Shown here piece by piece: positions 4,788 through 32,569 of a DNA stretch of 33,827 nt (positions within the stretch are counted from its first letter, which is position 1; the number at the start of each line of letters is the position of its first letter). This stretch comes from Acidobacteriota bacterium. GTDB taxonomy: Bacteria > Acidobacteriota > Vicinamibacteria > Vicinamibacterales > UBA8438. The position numbers were made by a program, and so were the translations under genes. A model generated the notes under the pieces. It was not told the origin of the DNA. It worked only from the letters and a program-made list of their open reading frames with translations, and made no database searches. The stretch is taken from assembly GCA_021296485.1 (NCBI GenBank), contig JAGWAI010000010.1, forward strand, positions 1 through 33,827, written 5' to 3'.

Positions 4788-4814
4788 TAGGCCGGCATTG
4801 TATCGGAAACCAGG

Positions 4815-4830
4815 GCGGACGTCCGTCCGC
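4815..4830. other. Short inverted repeat in the NSS-folD spacer
   Basis: Arms GCGGAC and GTCCGC surround a 4-base loop. It lies between two divergent genes, 28 bases upstream of the NSS transporter start and just before the putative folD promoter. It could be an operator or a leader hairpin of the transporter transcript; nothing shows which. Confidence 0.3.
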
Positions 4831-4841
4831 GGTGGCGCGGT

Positions 4842-4871
4842 GTGACTTCACGGATCGACAGTGGATAGAAT
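4842..4871 (+). promoter_or_regulatory. Putative sigma-70 type promoter for folD
   Basis: The -35-like GTGACT (4842-4847, 4 of 6 to TTGACA) is followed after 18 bases by the -10-like TAGAAT (4866-4871, 5 of 6 to TATAAT). It sits about 50 bases before the folD start and in the right orientation. Assigned by motif match only. Confidence 0.4.
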
Positions 4872-4921
4872 GTGCGCGTCCCCACTATTCCAACCGATTG
4901 AATCAAGGGCGAAGGACGAAC

Positions 4922-5862
<941 letters not shown>

Positions 5863-16474: not shown

Positions 16475-17350
16475 ATGTCCGTGTTGATTGATCAGAACAC
16501 CCGCCTGCTCGTTCAGGGCTTGACCGGGCGGGAAGGCACGTTTCACGCGAAGCAGGCGGCCGCATTCGGTACCACCGTGGTCGGCGGCGTGACGCCCGGC
16601 AAGGGCGGACTGGTGCATGAGGGCTGGCCGGTATTCGACACGGTGGCGCAGGCGGTAGGGGAGACCGGCGCCGATGCATCGGTCATCTTCGTGCCGCCGT
16701 CGGTCGCCGCCGATGCCATCCTGGAGGCGGCGGACGCGGGTCTCTCGCTGGTCGTCTGCATCACCGAGGGTATCCCGACGATCGACATGCTGGGTGTGGT
16801 GCGCTACCTGGAAGGGCGGCCTACGCGCCTGATCGGTCCCAACTGTCCGGGCATCATCTCGGCGGGCAAGGCCAAGGCCGGAATCATCCCCGGGCATATC
16901 TGCCAGGAGGGGCGCGTCGGCATCGTGTCAAAGAGCGGCACGCTCACCTACGAGGCGATTCACCAGCTCACGCGACTGGGCCTCGGCCAGACCACGTGCA
17001 TCGGAATTGGCGGGGACCCCCTGATTGGAACCACGTTCGTGGACGCTTTGCGGCTGTTCGCCGACGACGAAGCAACGGAGGCTGTCGTGCTGATCGGGGA
17101 GATCGGCGGCGCGGCCGAGGAAGAGGCGGCGGCGTTCATCGGCAAGGCCTTTCCGAAACCGGTGGTCGGCTTCATCGCCGGGCAGACGGCCCCGCCGGGC
17201 CGGCGCATGGGCCACGCCGGCGCCATCGTGTCCGGCGGACAGGGAACGGCGGCGGAGAAGATGGCAGCGCTCGAAGCCGCGGGCGTGACCGTCGTGAAGA
17301 GCCCTGCCGGCATCGGCGCGGCCGTCCGGAGCCGGCTGCGGGCGGCCTGA
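16475..17350 (+). CDS. sucD: Succinyl-CoA synthetase alpha subunit
   Basis: SucD binds CoA and carries the phosphohistidine. The 291-residue protein has the N-terminal Rossmann CoA-binding domain ([24 protein letters not shown]), [12 protein letters not shown] (121-132), SKSGTLTYE, and the active-site His247 in [14 protein letters not shown]. It begins 15 bases after the sucC stop, with the usual gene order and length. Confidence 0.96.
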
Positions 17351-17355
17351 CGACG

Positions 17356-17364
17356 TGCTAAAAT
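17356..17364 (+). promoter_or_regulatory. Possible extended -10 promoter before korA
   Basis: TGCTAAAAT is a TGn-extended -10 element (TAAAAT, 5 of 6 to consensus) in a short A-rich patch between sucD and korA, about 40 bases before the korA start. There is no clear -35. It would allow korAB to be expressed separately from mdh-sucCD. Confidence 0.4.
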
Positions 17365-17402
17365 CAAGAGTTTTGTGGATACGGTAGATTGCGAGGCCGT
17401 GC

Positions 17403-19301
17403 ATGGCTGTTTCTGACATTGCTCTCCAAGACGCACCGCTGGCGGACGTCACGGACCCGGTCGTCAACGACTTCAGCATCCGGGTAGCCACCGTCAACGG
17501 GTCCGGCAGCCAGACGGCGAACCTGGTCCTGCTGCGCTCCATCTTCCGGATGGGCATACCCGTTTCCGGCAAGAACCTGTTCCCGTCGAACATCGCGGGA
17601 CTCCCTACCTGGTTCACGATTCGGGCCAGCAAGGACGGCTATATCGCCCGCAAGCCCGGCATCGACCTGCTGGTGTCGATGAACGCCGAGACGGCGCGCG
17701 AAGACGTGCTGTCGCTGGACTCCGACGCCGTCGTCGTCTATGACGCGCCGCTGAACCTCGACGGCCTGCGCGATGACCTGGTTTTCTACCCGGTGCCGTT
17801 CGACAAGCTGGTCGCCGAGATCTGCCGGGACGCGAAGCTGCGGCGGCTGGTCCGCAACATGATCTATGACGGCGTGCTGGCGAATCTGCTGCAGATCGAC
17901 ATGCAGCAGATGGACGCCGCGCTCGAAAAGCAGCTCGGCCGCAAGCCGAAGGCCGTGGCGCTGAACCGCGGCGCCCTCGAGATCGGCTACCGCTACGCGG
18001 CCGAGCATCTCGAGAAGCGGGATCGCCTGGTGCTCGCGCCAATGAAGAAGACCAAGGGGCTCATCCTCGTCGAAGGGAACGCCGCCGCGGCGCTCGGCGC
18101 GATGATGGCGGGCGTTACCGTGGTGACCTGGTACCCGATTACGCCGTCGTCGTCGCTCTGCGAGACGCTCATCGATTACCTCCAGAAGTACCGTCTCGAT
18201 CCGGAAACGGGCAAGGCGACGTTTGCCGTCGTGCAGGCGGAGGACGAAATCGCCGCCCTCGGCATGGCGCTCGGCGCGGGCTGGGCCGGAGCGCGGTCGA
18301 TGACCTCGACCTCGGGCCCCGGCGTGTCGCTCATGGGAGAATTCTCCGGGCTGGGATACTACGCCGAGGTGCCGGCGGTAATTTTCGACGTCCAGCGGGT
18401 CGGGCCGTCAACCGGCCTGCCGACCCGCACGGCGCAGGGTGACGTCCTGACCACCGCGTTTCTGTCGCACGGCGACACCCGCCACCTGATGCTGTTCCCG
18501 GCGTCGGTGGAGGAGTGTTACACCATGGCGATCGAGGCGTTTGATCTGGCGGAGCGGTTCCAGACGCCGGTGTTCGTCATGAGCGATCTGGATCTGGGGA
18601 TGAACACCTGGATGTCGAAGGCGTTCAACTACCCGAAGAAGCCGCTGGACCGCGGCAAGGTGCTCGACCAGGAAACGCTCGATCGGATCGGCCGCTTCGG
18701 CCGCTACCGGGACGTCGACGGCGACGGCATTCCGTACCGCAGCATCCCGGGCGCCGACATGCCCGCCTTCTTCTGCCGCGGGTCCGGGCACAACGAATGG
18801 GCGCAGTACAGCGAGCGTCCGGACGACTACCAGGCAAACGTGGACCGGCTCGCGCGCAAGTTCGAGACGGCCCGCAACTGGATGCCCGAACCGGTGGTGG
18901 AGATCAACCGCAAGGCGTCAATCGGCATCATCGCGTACGGCACGACGCACTGGGCCATCGTCGAGAGCCGCGACCAGCTGCTGGCGGAGGCCGACCTGCA
19001 GACGTCGTACTACAGGGTGTGCGCCTATCCCTTCCGGGACGCGCTGGTGTCGTTCATCGAGCGCTACGACCGTGTTTACGTGGTGGAGCAGAACCGCGAC
19101 GCGCAGATGCTGAGTCTGATGAAGCTCGACGTGCGGCCGGAGCTGGCCAACCGGCTGCGGAGCGTGCTGCACTACTCCGGAGATCCGATCGATGCGCGCA
19201 CGGTCACCGACAGCATCCTGATCCAGGAAGGCTACCGGGTGGAGAAGGCCGGCGCCCAGACGACCCGGCTGCCGCACAGCGCCGGTGTCGGCGGCGAGTA
19301 G
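17403..19301 (+). CDS. korA: 2-oxoacid:acceptor oxidoreductase, fused gamma-alpha subunit (2-oxoglutarate type)
   Basis: With KorB this forms a ferredoxin-type 2-oxoacid oxidoreductase, most likely interconverting 2-oxoglutarate and succinyl-CoA. The 632-residue protein joins a gamma domain (about residues 25-195; VNGSGSQTANLVLLRS, GIPVSGKNLFPSNIAG) to an alpha domain (about 215-620; GNAAAALGAMMAG, YPITPSS at 244-250, a hallmark of the pyrimidine-binding domain, and SGPGVSLM). No ferredoxin-like cysteine clusters are present in this subunit, as in two-subunit KorAB enzymes. Placement after sucCD supports 2-oxoglutarate over pyruvate or branched-chain oxoacids, but specificity is not proven. 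No ferredoxin gene is in the window. Confidence 0.88.
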   Translation: MAVSDIALQDAPLADVTDPVVNDFSIRVATVNGSGSQTANLVLLRSIFRMGIPVSGKNLFPSNIAGLPTWFTIRASKDGYIARKPGIDLLVSMNAETAREDVLSLDSDAVVVYDAPLNLDGLRDDLVFYPVPFDKLVAEICRDAKLRRLVRNMIYDGVLANLLQIDMQQMDAALEKQLGRKPKAVALNRGALEIGYRYAAEHLEKRDRLVLAPMKKTKGLILVEGNAAAALGAMMAGVTVVTWYPITPSSSLCETLIDYLQKYRLDPETGKATFAVVQAEDEIAALGMALGAGWAGARSMTSTSGPGVSLMGEFSGLGYYAEVPAVIFDVQRVGPSTGLPTRTAQGDVLTTAFLSHGDTRHLMLFPASVEECYTMAIEAFDLAERFQTPVFVMSDLDLGMNTWMSKAFNYPKKPLDRGKVLDQETLDRIGRFGRYRDVDGDGIPYRSIPGADMPAFFCRGSGHNEWAQYSERPDDYQANVDRLARKFETARNWMPEPVVEINRKASIGIIAYGTTHWAIVESRDQLLAEADLQTSYYRVCAYPFRDALVSFIERYDRVYVVEQNRDAQMLSLMKLDVRPELANRLRSVLHYSGDPIDARTVTDSILIQEGYRVEKAGAQTTRLPHSAGVGGE

Positions 19302-19334
19302 TTCGATCTCGACAGAGACCAGAAAGGCGAAACC

Positions 19335-20381
19335 GTGGCGACCGTCACCCCCTCAAACCCACGCAGGAACGTCAACCGGATCGGACTCGACACGAAGCAG
19401 TACCGCGGCACGAAGACCACGCTGTGCGCGGGTTGCGGCCATAACGCCATCTCGGAGCGGATCATCGGCGCGTGCTACGAGATGGGCATCGATCCCGGGC
19501 GGGTGATAAAGCTCTCGGGCATTGGCTGCTCCAGCAAGAGTCCCGCGTATTTCCTCGGCTCGGCGCACGGCTTCAACGCGGTGCATGGACGCATGCCGTC
19601 GGTGGGGACCGGCGCGCTGCTCGCCAACAGCAAGCTAATCGCGATCGGCGTCAGCGGGGACGGCGACACGGGCGCGATCGGGATCGGGCAGTTCGTGCAT
19701 TTGATGCGGCGCAACCTGCCCATCGTCTACATCATCGAGGACAATGGCTGCTACGGACTGACGAAGGGTCAATTCTCCCCGACCGCCGATCTCGGATCGA
19801 CGCTCAAGACCGGCGTGGTCAATGATCTGCCGCCGATCGATACTTGTGCGCTCGCGGTGGAGCTAGGTGCGACGTTCGTTGCGCGGTCGTTCTCCGGCGA
19901 CAAGAAGCAGTTGATGGCGATCCTCAAGGCGGCGCTCAGCCATCGCGGGACGGCGATGGTCGACGTGCTGTCGCCCTGCGTCACGTTCAACGATCACGAG
20001 GGATCGACGAAGAGCTATTCGCACGTGAAGGAGCACGACGACCCGCTCGAGGAGGTCAGCTTCGTGCCGTTCTTCGAAGATATCGCAGTGGACTACGAGC
20101 CCGGAACCACGCAGGCGGTCCCGATGCACGACGGTTCGACGCTGTACCTGACCAAGCTCGACGAGCAGTACGACGCGCTGGACAAGATCCAGGCGCTGCG
20201 CGTACTGAACGAGACCCGCCGGCGCGGTGAGTTCGCCACGGGCGTCATCTACGTGGAGCCGGATCGCGACGACTTCCTGGCCATGCTCAACCTGGTTGAC
20301 GAGCCGCTGGCGCAATTGCCGCAGTCGCGCGTCCGTCCGCAACGGGCGGCGCTCAACGAAATCATGGAATCGCTGCGCTGA
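19335..20381 (+). CDS. korB: 2-oxoacid:acceptor oxidoreductase beta subunit (thiamine-diphosphate binding)
   Basis: KorB binds thiamine diphosphate and one [4Fe-4S] cluster. The 348-residue protein has C31-x2-C34 (CAGCGH), Cys65 (GIGCSS) and Cys215 (LSPCVTFND) as likely cluster ligands, and the ThDP/Mg motif GDGDTGAIG (108-116) continuing to DNGCYGLTKGQ (136-146). It starts with GTG at 19335, preceded by AAAGG, 33 bases after korA. It is somewhat longer at its C-terminus than the shortest KorB proteins. A small perfect hairpin (20380-20396) overlaps its stop. Confidence 0.92.
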   Translation: MATVTPSNPRRNVNRIGLDTKQYRGTKTTLCAGCGHNAISERIIGACYEMGIDPGRVIKLSGIGCSSKSPAYFLGSAHGFNAVHGRMPSVGTGALLANSKLIAIGVSGDGDTGAIGIGQFVHLMRRNLPIVYIIEDNGCYGLTKGQFSPTADLGSTLKTGVVNDLPPIDTCALAVELGATFVARSFSGDKKQLMAILKAALSHRGTAMVDVLSPCVTFNDHEGSTKSYSHVKEHDDPLEEVSFVPFFEDIAVDYEPGTTQAVPMHDGSTLYLTKLDEQYDALDKIQALRVLNETRRRGEFATGVIYVEPDRDDFLAMLNLVDEPLAQLPQSRVRPQRAALNEIMESLR

Positions 20382-20396
20382 GCGGCATTGCCGCTC
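20380..20396 (+). terminator. Hairpin at the korB stop, weak terminator candidate
   Basis: GAGCGGC-ATT-GCCGCTC is a perfect 7-bp stem with a 3-base loop immediately after korB and before ndk. There is no T-run, so it may act as an RNA end-protecting or attenuating hairpin rather than an intrinsic terminator. Confidence 0.3.
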
Positions 20397-20413
20397 GGCA
20401 TGGTCCCGACTAC

Positions 20414-20824
20414 ATGGAACGCACACTAGCCATCATCAAGCCGGATGCCGTCGAACGCGGCGTCATCGGTGCGATCATCCAGCGCATGGAAGCCGCCGAT
20501 CTGCGGATCCGGGAGATGCGCCTCGTGCGCTTGACCAAGGCGGATGCCGAAGGGTTCTACGCGGTGCACCGCGACAAGCCGTTCTTCGACAATCTCACCG
20601 ATTTCATGTCTTCGGGACCAGTCGTGGTGCTCGCTCTTGAAGCGCCGGACGTAATCCGGCACTGGCGGCGCCTGATGGGCGTGACGGATCCGGCAAAGGC
20701 CGGCCGCGGGACGATCCGCCGCGAGTACGGCACGTCCATAGAGACGAACGCTACGCACGGCTCGGACGCGCCCGAGACGGCGGCGTTCGAGCTCGATTTC
20801 TTCTTCAAGGCCGCACACAGATAG
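20414..20824 (+). CDS. ndk: Nucleoside-diphosphate kinase
   Basis: Ndk equalises nucleoside di- and triphosphate pools through a phosphohistidine. The 136-residue protein starts with ERTLAIIKPDAVERG, has FMSSGPVVVLALE, and carries the active-site His115 in NATHGSDA. These are family signatures at typical length. It lies 32 bases after korB in the same direction. Following succinyl-CoA synthetase, which makes NTP, the pairing is metabolically sensible. Confidence 0.97.
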   Translation: MERTLAIIKPDAVERGVIGAIIQRMEAADLRIREMRLVRLTKADAEGFYAVHRDKPFFDNLTDFMSSGPVVVLALEAPDVIRHWRRLMGVTDPAKAGRGTIRREYGTSIETNATHGSDAPETAAFELDFFFKAAHR

Positions 20825-20899
20825 GCGCGGCGGGCCCAATGTGGGCGATCATCGTGGTTACCGCAGTGCTTGCGCCGCTTTCGCGGTAGGGCTGTCTCA

Positions 20900-21454
20900 G
20901 TGACGATCAAATCCGATTCGTGGATTCGGCGCATGGCTCTGGAGCAGCGGATGATCGAGCCGTTCGTCGAGAAGCAGGTGCGCAGCGGCGTCGTTTCGTA
21001 CGGCCTGTCGTCGTACGGCTATGACATACGCGTAGCGGACGAGTTCAAGGTGTTCACGAACATCAACACGACGGTGATCGACCCAAAGAAATTCGATCCG
21101 CTGTCGTTCGTCGATCTCAAGGCGGACAGCTGCATCGTGCCGCCCAATTCGTTCGCGCTCGCCCGTACCGTTGAGTATTTCCGCATTCCGCGGGACGTCC
21201 TGACGATCTGCCTGGGCAAGTCGACGTACGCCCGTTGCGGAATCATCGTGAATGTGACGCCCTTCGAGCCCGAATGGGAAGGCACGGCGACGCTGGAGAT
21301 ATCGAATACGACGCCGCTGCCCGCGCGGATCTACGCCAATGAAGGCATCGCCCAGGTGCTGTTCTTTCAGAGCGACGAACCGTGCGCGGTGTCGTACGCG
21401 GACAAGCGGGGCAAGTACCAGGCCCAGCAGGTGGTCACGCTTCCGAAGATTTGA
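20900..21454 (+). CDS. dcd: dCTP deaminase
   Basis: Dcd deaminates dCTP to dUTP, the usual source of dUMP for thymidylate. From the GTG at 20900 it has 184 residues, the family length, starting [12 protein letters not shown]. Ser108, Arg112 (GKSTYARCG) and Glu133 (TLEISN) correspond to Ser111, Arg115 and catalytic Glu138 of E. coli Dcd. The C-terminal [11 protein letters not shown] closes over substrate. An in-frame TTG 30 bases earlier is less likely because it adds residues absent from relatives. No dut gene is in the window; a bifunctional dCTP deaminase/dUTPase cannot be excluded. Confidence 0.95.
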
Positions 21455-21609: not shown

Positions 21610-22545
21610 ATGGAGAAGCTTGACGAGCGCGAGCCCGGCCCTCGGCGCGGGCCGCTGACAGGCGCGCCTGCGCTCGCCGTCCAGTTCTTCCTCATCCCGC
21701 TGGCCGTGGTCGGCGTCGTGGTGCTCGTCTACGGCGGGTTCCGCATGCTCGTCACGAACGAGCGGACGCCCGAAGAGTTTCTCAACGATGTGCGGACCGG
21801 CGGCCGCGAGCGGCGTTGGCCGGCTGCCTACGAGCTTTCGCGAATGCTGGATGCTCCTGAGGTCGAGGCGCAGCATCCGGGCCTCGCACCGGCGATTCTG
21901 AGGGCCTTTGCCGACTCCGCGGGCGACGATCCGCGCGTGCGCCGTTACCTCGCACTGGCGGTCGGGCGCCTGCGGAACGTGCCGCCCGGAGCCGTCGAAG
22001 AGCTCGTCGCCGGGTTGGACGATCCGGACACCGAGACGCGCATTAGCATCATCTGGGCGCTGGCCTCGATCGGCGATGCCGCGGTGGTCGACGAAATCGA
22101 GGCGATGTACCTGAGTGATGACGCCGGCGTCCGCAAGATGGCGGTGTATGCTCTTGGCGCGCTGCCGCTGGACGAGCAGGCGGCCACGCTGCGGAACGCA
22201 CTGGACGACACGGTTCCGGATGTCCGCTGGAACGCCGCGGTGGCGCTTGCCCGGCACGGCCGCAGCGACGGCATGACGGTGCTCCGCAGAATGCTTGACC
22301 GCGACTACGTGCAGGGCACCGTCAGCCGTACGCCGGACCTGGATGCCCAGTTGGACCCGGTGGCGGAGGTCATGGTGAGCGGACTGCAGGCGGTGGGAGC
22401 GCTCAAGGCCGCGGAGCTGCGTGAGACGGTCGCCGAATTGAGCCGCAGCGACGCCAGCCTGCGCGTGCGCGAGATGGCGCTCAGAACCCTGGAGTTTCTC
22501 GAACCGGCAACGGTTGAGGCCGGTGTGGCGCGGAGCCACGGCTGA
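21610..22545 (+). CDS. Membrane-anchored HEAT-repeat protein
   Basis: Function not known. The 311-residue protein has a short charged N-terminus, one membrane helix (about residues 21-43), then tandem two-helix repeats of HEAT/PBS-lyase type (about 65-300), with recurring patterns such as VEELVAGLDDPDTETRISI and LRNALDDTVPDVRWNAAVAL. The repeats follow the only membrane helix, so most of the protein lies on one side of the membrane. Which side is not certain. It is the first gene of the run that continues with Rieske, cytochrome b and octahaem c genes (71-bp gap to the Rieske gene), suggesting an assembly factor or accessory subunit; that role is inferred from position only. Confidence 0.8.
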   Translation: MEKLDEREPGPRRGPLTGAPALAVQFFLIPLAVVGVVVLVYGGFRMLVTNERTPEEFLNDVRTGGRERRWPAAYELSRMLDAPEVEAQHPGLAPAILRAFADSAGDDPRVRRYLALAVGRLRNVPPGAVEELVAGLDDPDTETRISIIWALASIGDAAVVDEIEAMYLSDDAGVRKMAVYALGALPLDEQAATLRNALDDTVPDVRWNAAVALARHGRSDGMTVLRRMLDRDYVQGTVSRTPDLDAQLDPVAEVMVSGLQAVGALKAAELRETVAELSRSDASLRVREMALRTLEFLEPATVEAGVARSHG

Positions 22546-22616: not shown

Positions 22617-23309
22617 ATGGCTGACGAGCTAAAACCCGAAACCCCGCCTGCCGGCAAGCCGAAGCCGACAGCCGGCGCCGCGCCCTCGGCCCGGCCGGCG
22701 CGCGCCGTTCCGCCGCCGCCGAATCCGGCGCTGGCCGGGCGGACCACCAGCGCCGCCGCGAAGGCGCCGGTTGCGAAGCGCGCGAAGCCCGCGGCGGCGG
22801 ACGACACTTCTCCGCTCATGTCGCGGCGCGGCTGGCTGGGCTTGTCGTGGGGCGCTTTCACCGCGGCCACGGCCGGCTGCCTCGCCGCGACCGGCCGCTT
22901 CATGTTCCCCAACGTTCTCAACGAGCCGCCGCAGCAGTTCACGATCGGGTTCCCCGACGAGTACGCGGACGGGGTCGACGAGCGGTGGAAGGATCGCTTT
23001 GGCGTGTGGATCGTGCGCACGTCGTTCGATACCGTCCACGAGGCGCCCGGTTTCTACGCGTTGTTCTCCATTTGCACCCATCTGGGTTGCACCCCCAACT
23101 GGCTCGCGGCCGAGAACAAGTTCAAGTGTCCGTGTCACGGCAGCGGCTTCCGCCCGACAGGCGTCAACTTCGAGGGGCCGGCGCCGCGCCCCCTGGAGCG
23201 GACGCGCATCGTCATGGCGGAAGACGGCCAGATACTGATCGACAAGAGCCGCAAGTATCAAAGTGAGCTCGGGCAGTGGACCGATCCCGAGTCGTTCCTC
23301 GAGGTGTAG
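22617..23309 (+). CDS. Rieske [2Fe-2S] subunit of a cytochrome bc-type complex
   Basis: This protein moves electrons from quinol at the Qo site to the c-type haem subunit. The 230-residue protein has the two cluster-binding boxes C153-T-H155-L-G-C158 and C171-P-C173-H174-GSGF, including the disulphide cysteines of the high-potential class. A single membrane anchor (about residues 73-92) is preceded by SRRGWLG (69-75), a plausible twin-arginine signal. Unusually, about 65 residues rich in Pro, Ala and Lys lie in front of the twin arginines, a long cytoplasmic leader. The gene is separated from the cytochrome b gene by only 8 bases. Confidence 0.95.
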
Positions 23310-23317
23310 ACGACGAA

Positions 23318-24133
23318 ATGGCCCAAACCGAGACGGTTCAACCGAAGGAAGCGTTGCTCGTCCGCTGCTGGAACTGGCTGACGGAAACGCAGATCTGGAC
23401 ATCCGTATTCCGCCATGCCGCGCCGATCAACGACCGCAACCGCGTGCTGGTCATGCTGTCGAACGTGTTCCTGCACCTGCACCCGGTCAGGCTCAAGAAG
23501 CACGGCGTGCGGCTGCGCTACACCTGGTGCATGGGCGGCCTGAGCTTCTTCCTCTTCCTGGTGCTGACCTTCACCGGCCTGCTGCTGATGTTCTACTACC
23601 GCCCGACGCTCGAGTACGCCTACTCGGACATCGTCGGCCTGCGCGAGCACGTGCCGCTCGGCATCATGCGGGAGATGCATCGCTGGGGCGCGCATGCGAT
23701 GGTCATCACGGTCTGGCTGCACATGTTTCGTGTCTTCATGACCGGGTCGTACAAGCCGCCGCGCGAGTTCAACTGGAACATCGGGGTCATCATGTTGGTC
23801 CTGACCCTGCTGCTGTCGTTCACGGGCTACCTGCTGCCGTGGGACCAGCTGGCGATCTGGGCAATCACGGTCGGTTCGAACATGGCGCGGGCAACGCCCT
23901 TCCTCGGACACGAGGGACCGGGCGCGGCGCTGTTGGCGCTCGGCGACGTACAGCTTATTCACGCGGCGGACGATGCCCGCTTCGCGCTGCTCGGCGGCAC
24001 CTTCGTCGGCGAGGGGGCGTTGCTGCGGTTCTACGTGCTGCACTGCGTGGGGCTGCCGCTCGTTATCGGGTTTCTCATGGCCGTACACTTCTGGCGCGTC
24101 AGGAAGGACGGGGGCATTTCCGGTCCGCTCTAG
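23318..24133 (+). CDS. Cytochrome b, N-terminal (b6-type) subunit of a cytochrome bc complex (petB/qcrB-like)
   Basis: This membrane subunit carries two b haems. The 271-residue protein has four main transmembrane helices. The haem ligands are His121 and His135 in helix B (HRWGAH ... WLHMF) and His242 and His257 in helix D. The helix-D pair is 15 apart, as in chloroplast cytochrome b6, versus 14 in mitochondrial cytochrome b. Cys71 in WCMGG aligns with the b6 Cys35 (YCLGG) that covalently binds haem ci; FYYRPT further on is also b6-like. GAGGTG before the ATG at 23318 decides the start. The C-terminal half is a separate gene, as in b6f and Bacillus-type bc complexes. Confidence 0.94.
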
Positions 24134-24142
24134 ATAAGAACC

Positions 24143-25216
24143 ATGGATTTGATCAAGGCGTTTATCAATCTATTCGCGGACCCGCGCCTGTTCTTCGTCA
24201 TGTCGGTCGTGGCGCTGGCCGTGATCGTCTGGAAGCGGGAGCTCTTTTCGAAGGACGCGGTCGGCTACGGCATGCTCGGCTTCCTGGCGGTGTTCTTCGG
24301 CTTCGGCCTGTTCGACGAGAACTTCCGGCTGATCGTCGTCAAGCCCGACAACGTGCCGATCGTGGCGCTCATCTTCCTGGTGGTCTTCTTCACTTGGTAC
24401 TCCATACGTGAAGGGGTGCTCAACGACCGGCGGATCGCGGCGGGTGACGACCCGATCGAGAAACAGGAATCCGATCGCGTCTGGGTCTGGCCGGACCTTG
24501 TCTACACGGAGCTGATAGCGCTCATCCTGTGCACCGCGATCCTGATCGTCTGGTCGGTGGGCCTCGAGGCGCCGCTGGAGCAGCCGGCGAATCCGGCCAA
24601 CACGCCGAACCCGTCGAAAGCCCCGTGGTACTTCCTGGGTCTGCAGGAAATGCTGGTGTACTTCGACCCGTGGCTGGCCGGCGTGGTGCTGCCGAGCCTG
24701 ATCATCGTCGGATTGATGGCCATTCCGTATGTGGACACGAACCCGAAGGGGAACGGCTACTACACGTTCCGCGAGCGCAAGGTCGAAATCACGATCTTCC
24801 TGTTCGGGTTCCTGGTGCTGTGGTCGTCGTTGATTGTCCTGGGCACGTTCCTGCGCGGACCGAACTGGAACTTCTTCGGGCCGTTCGAGTACTGGGACAT
24901 CCACAAGCTGGAGCCGCTCACGAACGTCCAGTTGTCGGACTTCATCTGGGTGCGGATGCTGGGGCAGCCGCTGCCGGAGCACTGGTTCATTCGCGAGGTC
25001 TTCGGAATCATTCTCACGCTGGCCTACGTGGCGGTGCTGCCGCCGCTGCTGGCCAGGATGTTCCGGCGCTACTACGAAAAGCTCGGGGCGACGCGCTTCT
25101 ACGTCACGGCAATGCTGTTTCTGATGATGCTGTCGCTGCCGGTGAAGATGTTGACACGGTGGATCTTCAACCTGAAATACGTGGTATCGATTCCCGAGTT
25201 CTTCTTCAATATCTAG
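24143..25216 (+). CDS. Cytochrome b C-terminal domain subunit with extra membrane helices (petD/qcrC-like)
   Basis: This is the subunit IV-like partner of the b6-type protein, completing the quinol-oxidation site. The 357-residue protein is longer than PetD (about 160). Three additional N-terminal helices (about residues 15-31, 42-57 and 70-86) precede the conserved part, which begins at LEAPLEQPANPANTPNPSK. The Qo motif, PEWY in most complexes, reads A160-P-W-Y163, so the glutamate is missing. About five further helices follow (122-139, 177-196, 215-236, 283-305, 320-340). It starts 9 bases after the cytochrome b stop. Confidence 0.9.
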   Translation: MDLIKAFINLFADPRLFFVMSVVALAVIVWKRELFSKDAVGYGMLGFLAVFFGFGLFDENFRLIVVKPDNVPIVALIFLVVFFTWYSIREGVLNDRRIAAGDDPIEKQESDRVWVWPDLVYTELIALILCTAILIVWSVGLEAPLEQPANPANTPNPSKAPWYFLGLQEMLVYFDPWLAGVVLPSLIIVGLMAIPYVDTNPKGNGYYTFRERKVEITIFLFGFLVLWSSLIVLGTFLRGPNWNFFGPFEYWDIHKLEPLTNVQLSDFIWVRMLGQPLPEHWFIREVFGIILTLAYVAVLPPLLARMFRRYYEKLGATRFYVTAMLFLMMLSLPVKMLTRWIFNLKYVVSIPEFFFNI

Positions 25217-25268
25217 AATTGTCCGTGCAACGGCGCGGACTGTAGAGGGTGAGGCGAGCGTAGCGGAG

Positions 25269-28094
25269 ATGGCTGACAAGAGGTCTGTCGGACACGCGTA
25301 TAACGTTGATTTCCTGAACGTCGTTTTTGCGGCGTCCAGCATCTTTCTGTTCGTCACCACGATCCTGATGGTCTGGGACGATTACGACCGCCAATGGAAG
25401 GACTACCAGCGGCGCTTCGTGGAGCTGGAGCTGGAGGTGACGCGGGCCGGCCTGGCGGCAGCGCAGACCGACGTCGACCAGACGCAACTGGCGGAGCTGC
25501 AGGCGCAACGGGCGCAGGCGGAGGCGGAGCGGGACGCCAGCCAGGATCAGATCGACGCGTTGCAGGGGCAGCTCGAAGGGGTCGAGGCCGATCTGTTTCT
25601 GACAAATCAGGAATTCCAGTCGACGAAGGCGGTTTACGACGCCGAGCGTTACGAGTTCGAGGAGTTGCAGGAGGAGCATCCGGAGGAAGCGGAGTCGGAG
25701 CGCGCCGCGATAGACGAGATGTTCCAGCACTGGCTCGACCTGGGCCTCCAGGTGGAGCGCCTGACGGCGGATCGCGACGGCATTCGAGCGCAGATTGGAG
25801 AGTTCACGAACCAGGTTACGGAGATAGAAGCGCAAGTCCGTGAGCTGACCTCCGAGACCACACGCCATGGCGACCGCGTCGCCGATCTGCAGCCGAGCCT
25901 GGTTAACGACCTGATCCTGAACGCGCCGCTGCTCGACTTCATGGCGCCTACCATCACGGTGCGCCAGATCATCACTCCGGCAATCGTCGACGACGTCAAC
26001 TTCATCCGCGTTGCCAAGATGGACCGCTGCACCACCTGCCATCTGGCGATCGACCGGGAGGGTTACGAAGAATACCCGCAGCCTTTCCGCACGCATTCGA
26101 ACATTGAAGCGTACGTCGGCAGCGCCTCGCCGCACCCGGTCGGGCAGTTCGGCTGCACGGTGTGCCACGAGGGCATGGGCCAGTCGCTGACGTTCCGGCA
26201 TTCGTCGCACACGCCTGAAGGCGAGGAGCAGACGCTTGCGTGGGAGCACGATTTGGACTGGGAGGAGCCCCACCTCTGGGACTTCCCGATGCTTCCCACA
26301 AACATGACCGAGGCGTCGTGCGCGAAGTGCCACCAGGAGACGGTCTTCATTCCCGAAGGTCCCAAATTGAGCATGGCCTACGGCCTGTACGAGCGGGCCG
26401 GCTGCTACGCCTGCCACAAGACGCGCGGGTTCGAGGACCTGCGGCGCCCCGGACCCAGCCTGACGAAAATCGATTCCAAGCTGGAGCGGGACTGGGTGGC
26501 GCGCTGGATCCGGGAGCCGCGCGCCATCAAGTCGAGCACCTGGATGCCGCGCATCTGGTACAACAGCAATACCAGCTCGCCCGAGGACGCGGTCCGGAAC
26601 GAGGCGGAAATTGATGCGGTCGTGGCCTACCTGTTCGCGAGTTCGGAGAACCACGAGTTCGCGGTTTCGTCGCCGACGAGAGGCGATCCGGAACGCGGCC
26701 GCGAGATCGTCGAGTCGGTCGGCTGCCTGGCCTGTCACGTGGCCGGCGACGAGGATCGGCTGGATGCGGGGCCGCGCAGAACGTTCGGTCAGCCGCTGCA
26801 GAACATCGGCAGCAAGACTACGTTCGAGTGGCTGTTCGACTGGGTCCGCGATCCGCGGCATTTCAGCGCCGGGACGTACATGCCCGACCTTCGCCTGACG
26901 GACCGGGAAGTCGGCGATGTCGCGACCTATCTGGAGACGCTGGTCGGCGCGGACGGCGACGGACCGCGGGCCAGCTACACCGACGCGGACGTCACCGCGA
27001 TTCTGACCGACTACCTGCGCTCGATCGTGCCGACCGACGAGGCGAACGCGACGGTCGCGGCGATGTCGGCCGAGGAGCGGCAGCTCGAGCTGGGGCGGCG
27101 CGCAATCGGCCGCTACGGGTGCTACAGCTGCCACGAAATCTCGGGATTCGAGGATACGCAGCCGATCGGCATCGAGTTGTCGGAGGAGGGCACGAAGCTG
27201 ATCGCGCGACTCGACTTCGCCTTCGTGCACGAGATTCCGCACACCAAGGTCGAGTGGTTCAAGCAGAAGCTGCGGGACCCGCGCATATACGATCGCAGCC
27301 GCGTCCTGCAGCCGCTCGAGAAGCTGCGGATGCCGAATTACGAATTCAGCGAGGAAGAGACCACCCTGCTGGCGACGGCCATAATGAGCTTCCAGAGCGA
27401 GGTGCAACCGCTCGCCTCGCAGGCGCCCCGCTCGGCGCGGCACGACGCGCTTCGCGAGGGACGCAACCTGGTCCGCCGCCGCAACTGCGTGGCCTGCCAC
27501 GAGATAGAGGCGGACGGTGGCGACTATCTGCAACTCGTGGACGATGCGGCGCTGGCGCCGCCGCTGCTCACGCCCGAGGGAGCCAAGGTCAAGCCCGACT
27601 GGCTGTACGCCTTCCTGCGGGGGCCGATCACCATCCGGCCATGGCTCGACGTGCGAATGCCGACCTTCGGACTGGAGGATGATCATTGGAACGGCGTCAT
27701 CGACTATTTCGCCGCGATTTCCGACGTTGTCGGCCCGTTCAGGACCCATGAAGTCGAGCCTGAACCGGGAGTGATCCGCACGGGCGAGGAGTTGTTCGAC
27801 CTGCTCCGCTGCCAGCAGTGTCACGTGCTGGACACGATTCCGGAAGACCAGCCGACGGACAATCTCGCGCCGGACCTGCGCATGGCGCAGGAACGCTTGC
27901 AGCCGGACTGGATTCTGGACTGGCTGGTGGCGCCGCTCGAGATACAGCCCGGGACGCGCATGCCCATGTTCTGGACGGAGTACCCGGGGTCGTTGTACCC
28001 GCAGTTCGACGCGGATGGCATTCGCCAGATCGAGTCGGTGCGCGACTACCTGCTGACCTTCCGCGGTGGGCCCAGCCCGCTGACCGGGAACTAG
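25269..28094 (+). CDS. Coiled-coil octahaem cytochrome c, last gene of the bc-type operon
   Basis: A 941-residue protein with a short cytoplasmic N-terminus, one membrane anchor (about residues 13-35) acting as uncleaved signal, and a long Glu/Gln/Leu-rich coiled coil (about 40-205). Eight CxxCH haem sites follow, beginning at residues 254, 296, 351, 379, 486, 618, 740 and 848. The last five are each followed 47-70 residues later by a Met-Pro (Met426, 538, 688, 797, 898), the usual sixth ligand of class I cytochrome c, so they look like five tandem monohaem domains. The first three lack such a Met. Its position right after the two cytochrome b genes suggests it replaces cytochrome c1 or f and passes electrons onward in the periplasm; that is inference. 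No close family name is known to me. Confidence 0.9.
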   Translation: MADKRSVGHAYNVDFLNVVFAASSIFLFVTTILMVWDDYDRQWKDYQRRFVELELEVTRAGLAAAQTDVDQTQLAELQAQRAQAEAERDASQDQIDALQGQLEGVEADLFLTNQEFQSTKAVYDAERYEFEELQEEHPEEAESERAAIDEMFQHWLDLGLQVERLTADRDGIRAQIGEFTNQVTEIEAQVRELTSETTRHGDRVADLQPSLVNDLILNAPLLDFMAPTITVRQIITPAIVDDVNFIRVAKMDRCTTCHLAIDREGYEEYPQPFRTHSNIEAYVGSASPHPVGQFGCTVCHEGMGQSLTFRHSSHTPEGEEQTLAWEHDLDWEEPHLWDFPMLPTNMTEASCAKCHQETVFIPEGPKLSMAYGLYERAGCYACHKTRGFEDLRRPGPSLTKIDSKLERDWVARWIREPRAIKSSTWMPRIWYNSNTSSPEDAVRNEAEIDAVVAYLFASSENHEFAVSSPTRGDPERGREIVESVGCLACHVAGDEDRLDAGPRRTFGQPLQNIGSKTTFEWLFDWVRDPRHFSAGTYMPDLRLTDREVGDVATYLETLVGADGDGPRASYTDADVTAILTDYLRSIVPTDEANATVAAMSAEERQLELGRRAIGRYGCYSCHEISGFEDTQPIGIELSEEGTKLIARLDFAFVHEIPHTKVEWFKQKLRDPRIYDRSRVLQPLEKLRMPNYEFSEEETTLLATAIMSFQSEVQPLASQAPRSARHDALREGRNLVRRRNCVACHEIEADGGDYLQLVDDAALAPPLLTPEGAKVKPDWLYAFLRGPITIRPWLDVRMPTFGLEDDHWNGVIDYFAAISDVVGPFRTHEVEPEPGVIRTGEELFDLLRCQQCHVLDTIPEDQPTDNLAPDLRMAQERLQPDWILDWLVAPLEIQPGTRMPMFWTEYPGSLYPQFDADGIRQIESVRDYLLTFRGGPSPLTGN

Positions 28095-28105
28095 CGTCTT
28101 TGTCT

Positions 28106-28176
28106 CGGGGCTGCGCCCCGAACCCCCGGCCGCCGCTAGCGGGGACCCCATTGTCCAGCGCCGTGGCCGCCGAGGC
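28106..28176 (+). repeat. Intergenic repeat family A, copy A3
   Basis: CGGGGC-TGC-GCCCCG (head hairpin), then AACCCCCGGC, then CTAGCGGGGACCCCATTG, then CCGTGGCCGCCG, collinear with A1 and A2. The closing pair is C-G here but T-A in A1 and A2, a compensatory change. It starts about 12 bases after the octahaem cytochrome stop and could end or shield that transcript; no T-run follows. Confidence 0.75.
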
Positions 28177-28258: not shown

Positions 28259-29980
28259 GTGATCACCGTTCCACCGGTTCTGGCAAGTGCGCTGAACAAC
28301 CTGGCCGCAGATTGGGAATCCGATGACGGGGTTTCCCGCCTATGGCGCGGCGACGCGGCGTTGTGGACCGGCGCCGACGAGGGCCGTTGGCTGGGCTGGC
28401 TGCGGGCGGTTCCCGTGTCATCCGGTGAGCTGAAGTCCCTGGAGGCGCTGCAGCGGGAAGTGCGTGCCGGAGGATTCGAGCATGCCGTGCTGATGGGCAT
28501 GGGCGGGTCTAGCCTTTGCCCGGACGTGCTGCGGCAGTGTTTCGAGCGGCCGGCCGGCGCGCTGCAACTGCACGTGATCGACTCCACCGATCCGGCGCAG
28601 GTGCGGGCGGTAGACGCGCGGATCGACTATGGGCGGGCGCTCTTCATCGTCGCGAGCAAGTCCGGTACGACGCTGGAGCCGGATCTGTTCCTGCGGTACT
28701 TTGCGGCGCGGGCGCGCCAGGCGTTGGGCGCGAACGCCGCCCGACAGTTCGTGGCCATAACGGACCCCGGGTCACAGCTCGAACAGTTGGCGCGCGCGGA
28801 ACGATTCGGGCATCTGTTCCACGGCGTTCCCGCCATTGGCGGCCGGTTCTCGGCGCTCTCCAACTTCGGTCTGGTTCCAGCCGCTGTCATGGGACTCGAA
28901 GTGGAGCGCCTGGCAGCGCGAGCCGCGGCAATGCGTGCGGCGTGTGAGGCGGACGTGCCGCTGCTTGAGAATCCGGGTGCGATGCTCGGGCTGATGCTGG
29001 CCGCGGGCGCACGCATAGGGCGCGACAAGTTGACGTTCGTGATGTCGCCGGCCTACAAACCCCTGGGCGCCTGGCTGGAGCAGCTGCTGGCCGAATCCAC
29101 CGGGAAGAACGGCGTCGGCCTCATTCCGGTTGACGGAGAGAAAGTCGGACCGCCCGAGGTCTACCGGGACGATCGGCTGTTCGTATACGTTCGCGATCAG
29201 CTGGCTCCCGACGCTGCGCAGGACGCGGCGGTCGAAGGTCTGGAGGCCGCTGGTCGCCCGGTCATCCGCCTCGTCCTGAAGGATGCATACGACCTGGCCG
29301 CGGAGTTCTACCGCTGGGAATTCGCCACGGCCGTGGCCGGATCGGCAATGGGTATCAACCCGTTCGACCAGCCGGATGTCGAGGCGAGCAAGGTCGAGAC
29401 GCGGCGGCTGACGGTGGCGTACGAAGCCGAGGGCGCGCTGCCGGCCGAAGAGCCGATCATTCGGGACGGCAGCATCTCGGTCTATGCGGATCGGATGAAT
29501 GCCGAGGTGATCGCGGGGCGCGCCGGCGACGGCCGATTGGAAAGCGTGCTTGGCGCCCATTGCGATCGCATCGGTCCGGGAGACTATCTTGCGCTGCTGG
29601 CCTATGTTGAGATGGCCGATCGCCACGCGCGCCCGCTCCAACGTATCCGACACGCCGTCCGGGATGCGCGTGGCGCGGCGACGTCGGTCGGTTTCGGGCC
29701 ACGGTTTCTACATTCGACCGGCCAGTTGTACAAGGGCGGTCCGAATACCGGCGTCTTCATTCAGATCACCTGCGACGACAGCGCGGACCTGGCTGTCCCC
29801 GGCCGCCGCTCGACATTCGGTGTGGTCAAAGCCGCGCAGGCGAGCGGCGACTACCAGGTGTTGTCGGACCGCGGCCGGCGGCTGCTGCGGCTGCACCTGA
29901 CCGGCAACGTGGCGGTGGGCCTGGACCGTATCGCGGACCTCGTGCGGCAGAACGTTCACCGCGGGGAAGCGGGTCCATGA
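28259..29980 (+). CDS. pgi: Glucose-6-phosphate isomerase, transaldolase-fusion type but stand-alone
   Basis: Interconverts glucose-6-phosphate and fructose-6-phosphate. The 573-residue protein has a tandem SIS fold, with MGMGGSSLCPDVLRQ, SKSGTTLEPD, GGRFSALSNFG, and the C-terminal FLHSTGQLYKGGPNTGVF near residues 481-498. These resemble the PGI half of the bifunctional transaldolase/phosphoglucose isomerase proteins more than the classical E. coli Pgi. No transaldolase domain precedes it: the upstream gene is the cytochrome, with repeat A3 between. It starts with GTG at 28259, preceded by GGGAG at about 10 bases. A full transaldolase gene must lie elsewhere if it exists. Confidence 0.9.
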   Translation: MITVPPVLASALNNLAADWESDDGVSRLWRGDAALWTGADEGRWLGWLRAVPVSSGELKSLEALQREVRAGGFEHAVLMGMGGSSLCPDVLRQCFERPAGALQLHVIDSTDPAQVRAVDARIDYGRALFIVASKSGTTLEPDLFLRYFAARARQALGANAARQFVAITDPGSQLEQLARAERFGHLFHGVPAIGGRFSALSNFGLVPAAVMGLEVERLAARAAAMRAACEADVPLLENPGAMLGLMLAAGARIGRDKLTFVMSPAYKPLGAWLEQLLAESTGKNGVGLIPVDGEKVGPPEVYRDDRLFVYVRDQLAPDAAQDAAVEGLEAAGRPVIRLVLKDAYDLAAEFYRWEFATAVAGSAMGINPFDQPDVEASKVETRRLTVAYEAEGALPAEEPIIRDGSISVYADRMNAEVIAGRAGDGRLESVLGAHCDRIGPGDYLALLAYVEMADRHARPLQRIRHAVRDARGAATSVGFGPRFLHSTGQLYKGGPNTGVFIQITCDDSADLAVPGRRSTFGVVKAAQASGDYQVLSDRGRRLLRLHLTGNVAVGLDRIADLVRQNVHRGEAGP

Positions 29981-29989: not shown

Positions 29990-30079
29990 CTCACGGGCGC
30001 TTCCAGGTTCGGAAATGACTCGCGATCTGGTTGCCGTCATCTACCACCTGCCGGGAATCGCGTGTATCGGAAGGCTACT

Positions 30080-32569
30080 ATGACAAGGTGGCTGTTCAGG
30101 ACGACGGTCGGAGCGGCAGTCGTGGTCGTGCTCGGCGGGGGCCTGTTCTCGACTACAGGCCACGCCCAGGCAGTGTCCGGCGTGGAGTCGGCCGACGAAT
30201 TCCAGGGCTTTTTAGAGCAGTACTGCCTGCGATGTCACACTGATCGTCGGCAGCAAGCCGGGGCGGTCCCCATCTCGCTGGAGGGGGCCGACGTGGACGA
30301 CGTCGGCGCTCACGCCGAGTTGTGGGAAGAGGTGGTGCGCCGGGTCCGGGCGGGGCTGATGCCCCCGATGGGCTCACGGGGTCCTGACCCCACGACCCGG
30401 CACGCCGCGGCAACCTGGCTGGAACGGGAGCTGGACCGCGCCGCGGCAACCAATCCGCCTGCGGGCCGTCCGATGACCGCGCACCGGCTCAACCGCAACG
30501 AGTACCGGAACGCGGTGCGCGACCTGCTCGGCCTCGACGTCAACGTCGAATCCCTGCTTCCGCCGGACGACGTCAGCGCGGAGGGATTCGACAACAACGC
30601 CGATACGCTCTCAACGTCTACGACCTTGATGGAGCGCTACCTGGCGGCGGCCCGGCGTATCAGTCAACTGGCGATCGGAGACCCGGCCATGGTGTCGCGC
30701 GCCGACACCTACCGCGTCCCCCAGGCCGAAGTACAAGACGACCGTACGAGCGAAGACCTGCCGTGGGGGACGCGCGGCGGCCTTGCGGTGGAGCACTACT
30801 TCCCGCTGGACGGGGAGTATGTGTTCAAGATTGGCCTGCGCCGTAATTTCTACAACTACATCCGCGGGCTCGGCAATACGCCGCACCAGCTCGACGTGCG
30901 CGTCGACAAGGCGCTCGTCGCGTCGTTCGCGGTCGGCGGCGCGTACGACGGGCCGCGGTGCCCCACGAGCTTTTGCGGCCGCAGCGCGGGCGACCCGGGT
31001 GTCGCTGGGTGGGATTGGTACTCGGTACACGCCGACGATGACCTGGAAGTCCGGGTGCCGGTCGAAGCCGGGAAGCGGATGGTGAGCGTTGCATTCGTGA
31101 AGAAGCCGGCCTGGGACGAGGGCATCCTGCAGCCGGTCGCGAACCCGGCGGCCTACGGGTACAGCACCGATGAGCGCCAGGAAGGCAACCCCGCGGTCTC
31201 TGCGTTGGACATCACCGGCCCGTTCGGCGCGCAGTCGCCGCAGGCCACTGCGGCGCGGGATGCGATCTTCGTCTGTCACCCGGCCGCTGGCACAGATGAG
31301 GCGGAATGCGCTGGCGAGATCCTCGGCGGGCTCGCGCGGCGCGCCTATCGCCGCCCGGTGACCGCGGACGACCTGGCGATGCTGCGCGGCTTCTACGACG
31401 ACGGCCGGCGCGACGGGACCTTCGATGCCGGGATCCAGAGGGCCCTGGAGTTCCTGCTCACCGATCCGGAGTTTCTGTTCCGTGTCGAAGCCGCGCCGCC
31501 CGGGGATGTCGAGCCCGGGGTTGAGTACCCGGTCACCGACCTCGAGCTGGCCTCACGGTTGTCGTTCTTTCTCTGGGCCAGCATCCCCGATGACGAGTTG
31601 CTGGACGTGGCAGCTCGTGGCCGGTTGAGCGAGCCGGAAGAGCTCGAGCGGCAGGTGCGCCGGATGTTGGCGAGTCCCCGCGCACGCACGACGTTGGCCG
31701 AGCGGTTCTTCGGCCAATGGCTCGGCCTGAGCCTGATCCGCAACGCCGCGCCTGACCCGACTATCTTTCCGACGTTCGACGAGAACCTGCGCGACGCGAT
31801 GGATCGAGAAGCCCAGCTCTTTCTGGAGGCCCAGCTGCGCGATGATCGACCCGTGGTCGAGCTGCTGACGGCCGACTACACCTACGTCAACGAACGCCTG
31901 GCGCGTCACTACGGGATCCCGAACATCCACGGGAACCACTTCCGGCGCATGGAATGGCAGGATGATCGGCGGGCCGGTCTGCTGGGGCTGGGGAGCATTC
32001 TGACGCTCACCTCGTACGCGAACCGCACCTCCCCGGTCGCACGGGGCAAGTGGGTGCTCGAGACCTTGATGGGCACGCCGCCTCCGGAAGCGCCGGCCGA
32101 TGTGCCGGGCCTGGACGAGCGCGAGCCCGGTGAGGCGCCGACCTCGTTGCGCGCCCGCATGGCGCTGCACCGGGGCAACCCGGTCTGCGCGTCGTGTCAC
32201 CGGATGATGGACCCCCTGGGGTTTGCGTTGGAGAACTTCGATGCGATCGGGCGCTGGCGGACGACGGAAGAGACCGGAATCCCGGGCGAGATCGGCCCGG
32301 TCATCGATACATCGGGCACGACGCCGGACGGCAGCGATTTCGACGGCGCGGCCGGCCTGCGGACGATCCTGGCAAGCCGCGAGGACCTGTTCGTCGGCTC
32401 CGTGATCGAGCGGTTCCTGACCTATGCGACCGGACGGACGCTGGAAGCGTCCGACATGCCCGTGGTCCGGCAGATCCAGCGACAGGCCGCAGCGGACGAG
32501 TCGCGCTGGTCTGCCGTGATTCTCGCTATCGTCAACAGCAGACCGTTTCAGACGAGGAGGGCAGGCTGA
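30080..32569 (+). CDS. Secreted DUF1587/DUF1592/DUF1588/DUF1585 protein with two c-type haem sites
   Basis: Biochemical function unknown for this family, which is abundant in Planctomycetes and Acidobacteria. The 829-residue protein has a Sec-type signal peptide ending near residue 31 (cleavage after AQA) and an N-terminal haem site CLRCH (49-53). The DUF1587 box HRLNRNEYRNAVRDLLGLD begins near 134. Next come a beta-rich insert, the DUF1595/DUF1592 region (LLTDPEFLFRVE near 455-466 and onward to about 610), DUF1588 with a second haem site CASCH (703-707), and the C-terminal DUF1585. GGAAGG ahead of the ATG at 30080 favours it over the GTG at 30062. The stop overlaps the next start by one base (TGATG). 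Confidence 0.9.
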   Translation: MTRWLFRTTVGAAVVVVLGGGLFSTTGHAQAVSGVESADEFQGFLEQYCLRCHTDRRQQAGAVPISLEGADVDDVGAHAELWEEVVRRVRAGLMPPMGSRGPDPTTRHAAATWLERELDRAAATNPPAGRPMTAHRLNRNEYRNAVRDLLGLDVNVESLLPPDDVSAEGFDNNADTLSTSTTLMERYLAAARRISQLAIGDPAMVSRADTYRVPQAEVQDDRTSEDLPWGTRGGLAVEHYFPLDGEYVFKIGLRRNFYNYIRGLGNTPHQLDVRVDKALVASFAVGGAYDGPRCPTSFCGRSAGDPGVAGWDWYSVHADDDLEVRVPVEAGKRMVSVAFVKKPAWDEGILQPVANPAAYGYSTDERQEGNPAVSALDITGPFGAQSPQATAARDAIFVCHPAAGTDEAECAGEILGGLARRAYRRPVTADDLAMLRGFYDDGRRDGTFDAGIQRALEFLLTDPEFLFRVEAAPPGDVEPGVEYPVTDLELASRLSFFLWASIPDDELLDVAARGRLSEPEELERQVRRMLASPRARTTLAERFFGQWLGLSLIRNAAPDPTIFPTFDENLRDAMDREAQLFLEAQLRDDRPVVELLTADYTYVNERLARHYGIPNIHGNHFRRMEWQDDRRAGLLGLGSILTLTSYANRTSPVARGKWVLETLMGTPPPEAPADVPGLDEREPGEAPTSLRARMALHRGNPVCASCHRMMDPLGFALENFDAIGRWRTTEETGIPGEIGPVIDTSGTTPDGSDFDGAAGLRTILASREDLFVGSVIERFLTYATGRTLEASDMPVVRQIQRQAAADESRWSAVILAIVNSRPFQTRRAG

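Follow-up and report, generated by a model that had tools for sequence, protein, structure and literature searches.

An octahaem cytochrome c gene in an Acidobacteriota operon for a putative b6f-like Rieske/cytochrome b complex related to Kustd1480-1485 of Kuenenia

Acidobacteria are abundant in soil, and the wiring of their respiratory chains is poorly known. In the window (the whole 33,827-nucleotide stretch of Acidobacteriota DNA analysed here) an operon for a Rieske protein and split cytochrome b ends in a gene for an octahaem cytochrome c. The best explanation is that this protein serves as the c-type subunit of a b6f-like complex of Rieske protein and cytochrome b, and that this complex is a homologue of Kustd1480-1485 of the anammox bacterium Kuenenia stuttgartiensis without the NAD(P) oxidoreductase of the latter. 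The octahaem bc-type architecture is already known from Kuenenia. New here are the absence of the NAD(P) oxidoreductase and the presence of a conserved HEAT protein instead, a longer subunit IV, and a cupredoxin gene, sometimes with a cytochrome oxidase gene, adjoining in related loci. A literature search that ran mostly outside the subscription journals found no paper describing the Acidobacteriota version.

Organization of the operon

The gene order is HEAT, Rieske, cytochrome b6, subunit IV and octahaem, with the octahaem gene last, all on the same strand and separated by intergenic gaps of 71, 8, 9 and 52 nt respectively. The components are as follows.

21610..22545, plus strand: HEAT-repeat protein, a single membrane helix at its N terminus (Pfam HEAT_2, 6.8e-21; neighbourhood survey)
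22617..23309, plus strand: Rieske [2Fe-2S] subunit, cluster motif C-T-H-L-G-C...C-P-C-H-G-S-G-F (Pfam Rieske, 5.1e-07)
23318..24133, plus strand: cytochrome b6-type subunit, 271 aa from the ATG at 23318 (Pfam Cytochrome_B, 3.2e-39)
24143..25216, plus strand: petD-like subunit IV of 357 aa, with about 8 hydrophobic segments and the Qo motif KAPWYF (Pfam Cytochrom_B_C, 8.5e-08; motif conservation)
25269..28094, plus strand: octahaem cytochrome c, 941 aa (ORF and motif count, homologue alignment, AlphaFold2)

An alternative GTG start of the cytochrome b6 gene, at 23276, would overlap the Rieske gene. The haem-b histidines of cytochrome b (H135, H149, H256 and H271) are all invariant, and C85 aligns with Cys35 of b6, the haem-cN cysteine, in an alignment to 1q90_B. 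No cytochrome c1 or cytochrome f is present among the Pfam and NCBIfam matches of the operon proteins, and the octahaem gene takes their place in the operon. A promoter and terminator scan of the operon gave nothing above chance.

Genes for sucD, a 2-oxoacid:ferredoxin oxidoreductase, ndk and dCTP deaminase (dcd) precede the operon (window 16475-21454), and the whole order from sucD through ndk, dcd and HEAT to the octahaem gene is kept in same-order relatives. Downstream are a glucose-6-phosphate isomerase (PGI)-like gene (28259-29980), which matches the C-terminal part of the bifunctional transaldolase/phosphoglucose isomerase family PRK09533, and a gene for a DUF1592/DUF1588-type (planctomycete-type) cytochrome protein (30062-32569). 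An antisense ORF of 981 aa (25206-28151, minus strand) fully overlaps the octahaem gene; no support for it was found, and it is likely a by-product of high G+C.

Haem sites, ligands and fold of the octahaem protein

The first-pass annotation described a membrane-anchored protein with eight CxxCH sites and a Met-Pro after each of the last five, arranged as a three-haem module and five tandem monohaem domains. Re-reading of the ORF placed the eight sites at exactly the residues that it had given (254, 296, 351, 379, 486, 618, 740 and 848), and all 16 cysteines of the protein lie inside these motifs; in 5000 same-composition shuffles of the sequence the number of CxxCH motifs averaged 0.0064, with a maximum of 1. 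Exactly five MP pairs occur in the protein (426, 538, 688, 797 and 898), one after each of the last five CxxCH motifs, and the anchor corresponds to a hydrophobic helix at residues 13-39 recognized by both AlphaFold2 and hydropathy. Anchor, long helices, eight haem sites and Met-Pro pattern are all kept in homologues, and the parts of the protein map to the gene as follows.

25305..25385, plus strand: membrane anchor, residues 13-39 (predicted helix and hydropathy)
25392..25889, plus strand: putative long helical hairpin, residues 42-207 (AlphaFold2, tip indels, distance from membrane helix to haem 1), missing in short (B-type) homologues
26028..26348, plus strand: three-haem module, CxxCH 254/296/351 with conserved His276/His289/His314 (homologue alignment; low model confidence)
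26361..26639, plus strand: class I-like cytochrome c domain 1, CxxCH 379 and Met426 (alignment, AlphaFold2)
26688..26936, plus strand: cytochrome c domain 2, CxxCH 486 and Met538 (alignment, AlphaFold2, Pfam Cytochrom_C 475-558)
27069..27389, plus strand: cytochrome c domain 3, CxxCH 618 and Met688 (alignment, AlphaFold2)
27435..27719, plus strand: cytochrome c domain 4, CxxCH 740 and Met797 (alignment, AlphaFold2)
27765..28052, plus strand: cytochrome c domain 5, CxxCH 848 and Met898 (alignment, AlphaFold2)

Across 53 homologues the eight CxxCH motifs are kept, with the exception of one B-type ORF that has seven. Met426, Met538 and Met688 are invariant, Met797 is missing only in the seven-motif ORF, and Met898 is present in every coiled-coil-type member and mostly absent from the short types; His276, His289 and His314 are invariant or nearly so. 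Because these distal His and Met residues are conserved, the alignment indicates that haems 1-3 would be bis-His ligated and the remaining five His/Met.

The AlphaFold2 model (53 sequences, mean pLDDT 81.7, pTM 0.77) consists of the membrane helix (13-39), the long helices (42-207), a beta pair (233-254), the three-haem region and, for each of the five predicted His/Met haems, one small helical domain, although the three-haem region is poorly modelled (pLDDT 43-62 for residues 250-310). Ligand conservation and predicted fold thus both agree with a three-haem module plus five tandem monohaem domains. The Pfam matches are of Cytochrom_C, CBB3 and c7 types, and the best fold match of the model in a Foldseek search of the PDB is SoxX; together with the five Met-ligated domains, these rule out an octahaem enzyme of the HAO/OTR type. 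A sequence search of the PDB with the octahaem protein by itself yielded no useful match.

Linkage of the octahaem gene to bc genes

At a cut-off of E <= 0.001, octahaem matches were found in 34 of 40 near relatives and in 160 of 297 genomes across the phylum, partial and short-type matches included. Gene neighbourhoods were surveyed at 38 loci, and then at loci from Planctomycetota, Zixibacteria, Bacteroidota, Ignavibacteria, KSB1 and others. At 33 of 35 loci of the coiled-coil type, the gene immediately upstream of octahaem is that for subunit IV, and one further locus is split between contigs. Cytochrome b or subunit IV is also upstream in the short-type loci examined; the linkage of octahaem to bc genes is kept in Acidobacteriota, Planctomycetota and Zixibacteria. 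In most of the Acidobacteriota coiled-coil-type operons a HEAT gene lies just upstream of the Rieske gene. Because the octahaem gene closes the bc operon and so consistently adjoins subunit IV, the earlier proposal that it encodes the haem-c partner of a bc-type complex is well supported.

The survey, in which homologues are mostly beside bc genes, revealed two breaks. In one genome (G163) the octahaem gene is located away from bc genes. In the other (G297) it occupies the usual syntenic slot (L073, 8726-11164), from which HEAT, Rieske, cytochrome b and subunit IV are gone, and no cytochrome b match is left anywhere in this 99% complete genome.

Multihaem proteins often act as periplasmic conduits or reductases, and the octahaem protein might be a free-standing one that shares only the operon and receives its electrons by collision, for example in metal or extracellular reduction. 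The general habit of multihaem proteins, the persistence of the octahaem protein in G297 and the unlinked gene in G163 would all suit such a role. However, adjacency to subunit IV is the rule at coiled-coil-type loci, the window operon has no c1 or f gene for an alternative partner, and the Kuenenia homologue has been modelled inside a complex (PMC12954380), so that we regard a free-standing conduit as unlikely and favour a subunit of the Rieske/cytochrome b complex.

Relationship to Kuenenia and the NAD(P) oxidoreductase module

The best PDB match of the window Rieske protein is 9rk3 (E 3.9e-46), the solved Rieske protein Kustd1480 of Kuenenia stuttgartiensis, followed by 9rk4 (the Kuste4569 Rieske, 1.3e-19) and b6f (3e-16), placing it in the Kustd1480 group. 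A 100% identity match to Kustd1480 is found in one genome (G367), where the operon runs Rieske, cytochrome b, NAD(P) oxidoreductase, subunit IV (277 aa) and octahaem (948 aa, eight CxxCH); because its Rieske protein is identical to 9rk3, we take this operon to be Kustd1480-1485, with Kustd1485 as its last gene. The window octahaem protein matches Kustd1485 over residues 10-931 (337 bits, E 4e-105, 26% identity), and both proteins share the anchor, the long helices, the eight haems and every one of the eight distal ligands. The Kustd1480-1485 complex has already been modelled with the octahaem protein as a part (PMC12954380), and an atypical octahaem cytochrome beside a b6f-like operon has been noted in Nitrospina, Kuenenia and Methylomirabilis (PMC3578206). 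The architecture is therefore already described, which corrects the first-pass view that no known complex has it, whereas the mention there of anammox bc-like complexes as relatives is borne out by the Kuenenia homologue.

It has been proposed that the Kuenenia complex carries out electron bifurcation, in which one quinol electron goes uphill to NAD(P)+ via a cytoplasmic oxidoreductase and one goes downhill via the octahaem protein. The window complex could do likewise, as its Rieske, b6, subunit IV and octahaem proteins are all homologous to Kuenenia subunits, and the NAD(P) oxidoreductase gene is present in many short-type and in Planctomycetota coiled-coil-type operons (the gene is seen in Kuenenia L213, 7541-9241, and in L183 and L217). 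However, the window operon has no such gene, nor does any of the surveyed Acidobacteriota operons of the coiled-coil type, and a multi-cluster ferredoxin gene is found upstream of HEAT only in L069-L071. We consider bifurcation of this type improbable, and an NAD(P)H-generating function is not favoured for the window complex because the NAD(P) oxidoreductase module is absent.

The genes for this multi-[4Fe-4S] ferredoxin are directly upstream of HEAT in L069 (3503-3952), L070 (4086-4559) and L071 (11920-12393, minus strand), and in L184 one immediately follows the octahaem gene (4774-5247, minus strand). The ferredoxin could be a low-potential partner of the octahaem complex.

The long helical region

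The first-pass annotation described about 165 residues of coiled coil, which it suggested might trimerise or hold the haems off the membrane. The extent stands, in that AlphaFold2 predicts helices at 42-68, 71-90, 92-136 and 138-207 that make up about 165 residues (about 166 residues of long helix in all), but heptad periodicity is only moderate for 138-207 (19 of 1000 shuffles scored as high) and not significant for 71-136, so that it is safer to speak of long helices that probably form an antiparallel coiled-coil hairpin than of a coiled coil in the classical sense. Residue 137 is an approximate point of symmetry of the helical stretch, with arms of similar length on either side; insertions in the homologue alignment cluster at the tip, at about residues 137-155; and, after SoxX, the best PDB folds in the Foldseek search are mostly antiparallel coiled-coil hairpins (segments of SMC, colicin and iSH2), none of them significant at E 0.001. 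For these reasons an antiparallel hairpin is the favoured model, its geometry derived indirectly from secondary structure, indels and fold matches. The DSSP break at residue 137 is of one residue only, which leaves some room for a single kinked long helix.

The distance from the membrane helix to haem 1 is bimodal. Among Acidobacteriota proteins of the coiled-coil type it is nearly always 216-223 residues (227 in one), and in those of Planctomycetota and Zixibacteria 192-210, compared with 46-85 in the short (B-type) proteins. In an unrooted tree of the haem region, built by a quick method, a branch with SH-aLRT 100 sets the short type apart, and one change is enough to account for which proteins have the hairpin; this suggests that the hairpin separates two branches of octahaem complexes. 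The octahaem protein of G297 keeps its haems but has a stretch of about 106 residues from membrane helix to haem 1, as against the usual 218 or so. As a single case, G297 suggests a natural uncoupling, with the long helices serving the complex, and a docking role for the membrane helix and hairpin fits, since the stretch is shortened where no cytochrome b match is found.

Cytochrome bc complexes are dimers, which counts against a trimeric arrangement of the octahaem protein. That the region trimerises, or is a stalk keeping the haem domains far from the membrane, would accord with the predicted long helices and the very constant distance to haem 1 in most Acidobacteriota members, but it is highly unlikely given the near-symmetry and tip insertions, by which the hairpin would return to its own base, the mostly antiparallel fold matches, and a published AlphaFold3 model of the Kuenenia homologue in which the long helices wrap the complex and the Rieske protein (PMC12954380).

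Proposed electron path and candidate acceptors

We think it likely that the operon encodes a Q-cycle complex whose octahaem subunit accepts electrons from the Rieske protein and conducts them to a periplasmic acceptor; the results themselves are the gene order, the homology, the conservation of haem sites and ligands and the predicted domain layout, and from these we infer the physical complex, the path and direction of the electrons, the hairpin belt and the identity of the acceptor. The first-pass reading of the protein as acceptor of Rieske electrons and as a periplasmic wire is a reasonable one. Quinol would be oxidised at a Qo site to which cytochrome b6, subunit IV and the Rieske protein all contribute. 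One of its electrons would cross the membrane via haems b and the predicted haem cN; the second would leave the high-potential Rieske cluster for the octahaem protein, in which three bis-His and then five His/Met haems would act as a wire to the periplasmic acceptor, most likely a cupredoxin or a haem-copper oxidase. The N-terminal membrane helix and hairpin would dock the octahaem protein, probably encircling the membrane core and the Rieske head like a belt.

In many homologous operons (L058, L060, L061, L064-L066, L069-L071, L077-L079, L082 and L086) the octahaem gene is directly followed by a gene for a protein in which a cupredoxin-like domain precedes a carboxypeptidase-regulatory-like domain. 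The cupredoxin assignment is based on weak matches (Pfam 0.06; best blue-copper chain 0.012) and a C-x2-H-x2-M loop as in amicyanin, which was not seen in L060. A coxA gene directly follows the cupredoxin-like gene in L070 and L071, and is upstream in L086. The cupredoxin-like protein is a candidate acceptor of electrons from the octahaem protein; cupredoxin homologues exist in the window genome, where they lie elsewhere and not beside the operon.

COX1 is present in 22 of 25 genomes, including 18 of the 18 good ones. Neither COX1 nor NrfD was found in the window's own draft genome, which is 88% complete, and relatives have both; a single cytochrome b gene was found in the same draft. In view of its completeness and of the COX1 and NrfD of the relatives, we do not claim that the octahaem complex is the organism's only complex III.

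More tentatively, the data may reflect a hairpin-belted octahaem complex III, widespread in the phylum, that lacks the NAD(P)H module and passes quinol electrons along its eight haems to a dedicated amicyanin-like cupredoxin and on to a haem-copper oxidase, a proton-pumping arrangement unlike bc1, b6f or alternative complex III, and either descended from the anammox type or ancestral to it; we hold this as a possibility somewhat short of even. The findings suggest that a complex regarded as a curiosity of anammox bacteria is in wide use in place of complex III, with an NAD(P)H module that is optional. With this operon two matters become open to experiment: the reason for having eight haems, and whether NAD(P)H formation as proposed for anammox bacteria is a property of the core complex or is confined to complexes that have the additional subunit.

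Comparison with known systems

The Geobacter Ext cluster (ExtP/ExtQ/ExtS; GSU2930-2937) has similar b-type subunits and multihaem neighbours, but its multihaem proteins are different ones, encoded in separate genes, and the window b-type subunit scores 258 bits against ExtP, below the 290 cut-off. The b6f, bc1 and actinobacterial dihaem bcc complexes share the Rieske and cytochrome b core and the Q-cycle motifs, and have cytochrome f, c1 or the dihaem QcrC where the window operon, which encodes neither c1 nor f, has the octahaem protein. Kuste4569-4574 of Kuenenia has the same core subunits and a hexahaem protein (363 aa) that resembles the octahaem protein in its anchor and first two haem sites, but differs in having six haems, no hairpin and a separate HAO-like protein.

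The short (B-type) complexes (for example Geothrix campi L129, Ignavibacteriales L104 and Brocadiaceae L133) are clear homologues with the same eight haems and operon logic; they are without the hairpin, have haem 1 correspondingly closer to the membrane helix, and mostly lack the haem-cN Cys and Met898, and many have an NAD(P) oxidoreductase gene. Compared by description, Nitrospina gracilis and Methylomirabilis oxyfera are similar in having a split cytochrome b and an 'atypical octaheme' cytochrome in the same operon (PMC3578206).

Kustd1480-1485 shares with the window a Rieske protein of the same group, a cytochrome b of the b6 type that has the four haem histidines and the haem-cN cysteine, a separate subunit IV with extra helices, and an anchored, long-helix octahaem protein with identical haem ligands, the three bis-His and five His/Met haems being predicted from conservation. 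Kuenenia has the NAD(P) oxidoreductase (Kustd1483) between cytochrome b and subunit IV and no HEAT gene, whereas the window operon has a HEAT gene and no Kustd1483-like gene, and subunit IV is 277 aa in Kuenenia compared with 357 aa in the window. The window Rieske motif CPCHGSGF, known from sequence, has Ser and Phe as in Kustd1480 (PMC12954380), a type for which a midpoint potential above +300 mV would be expected.
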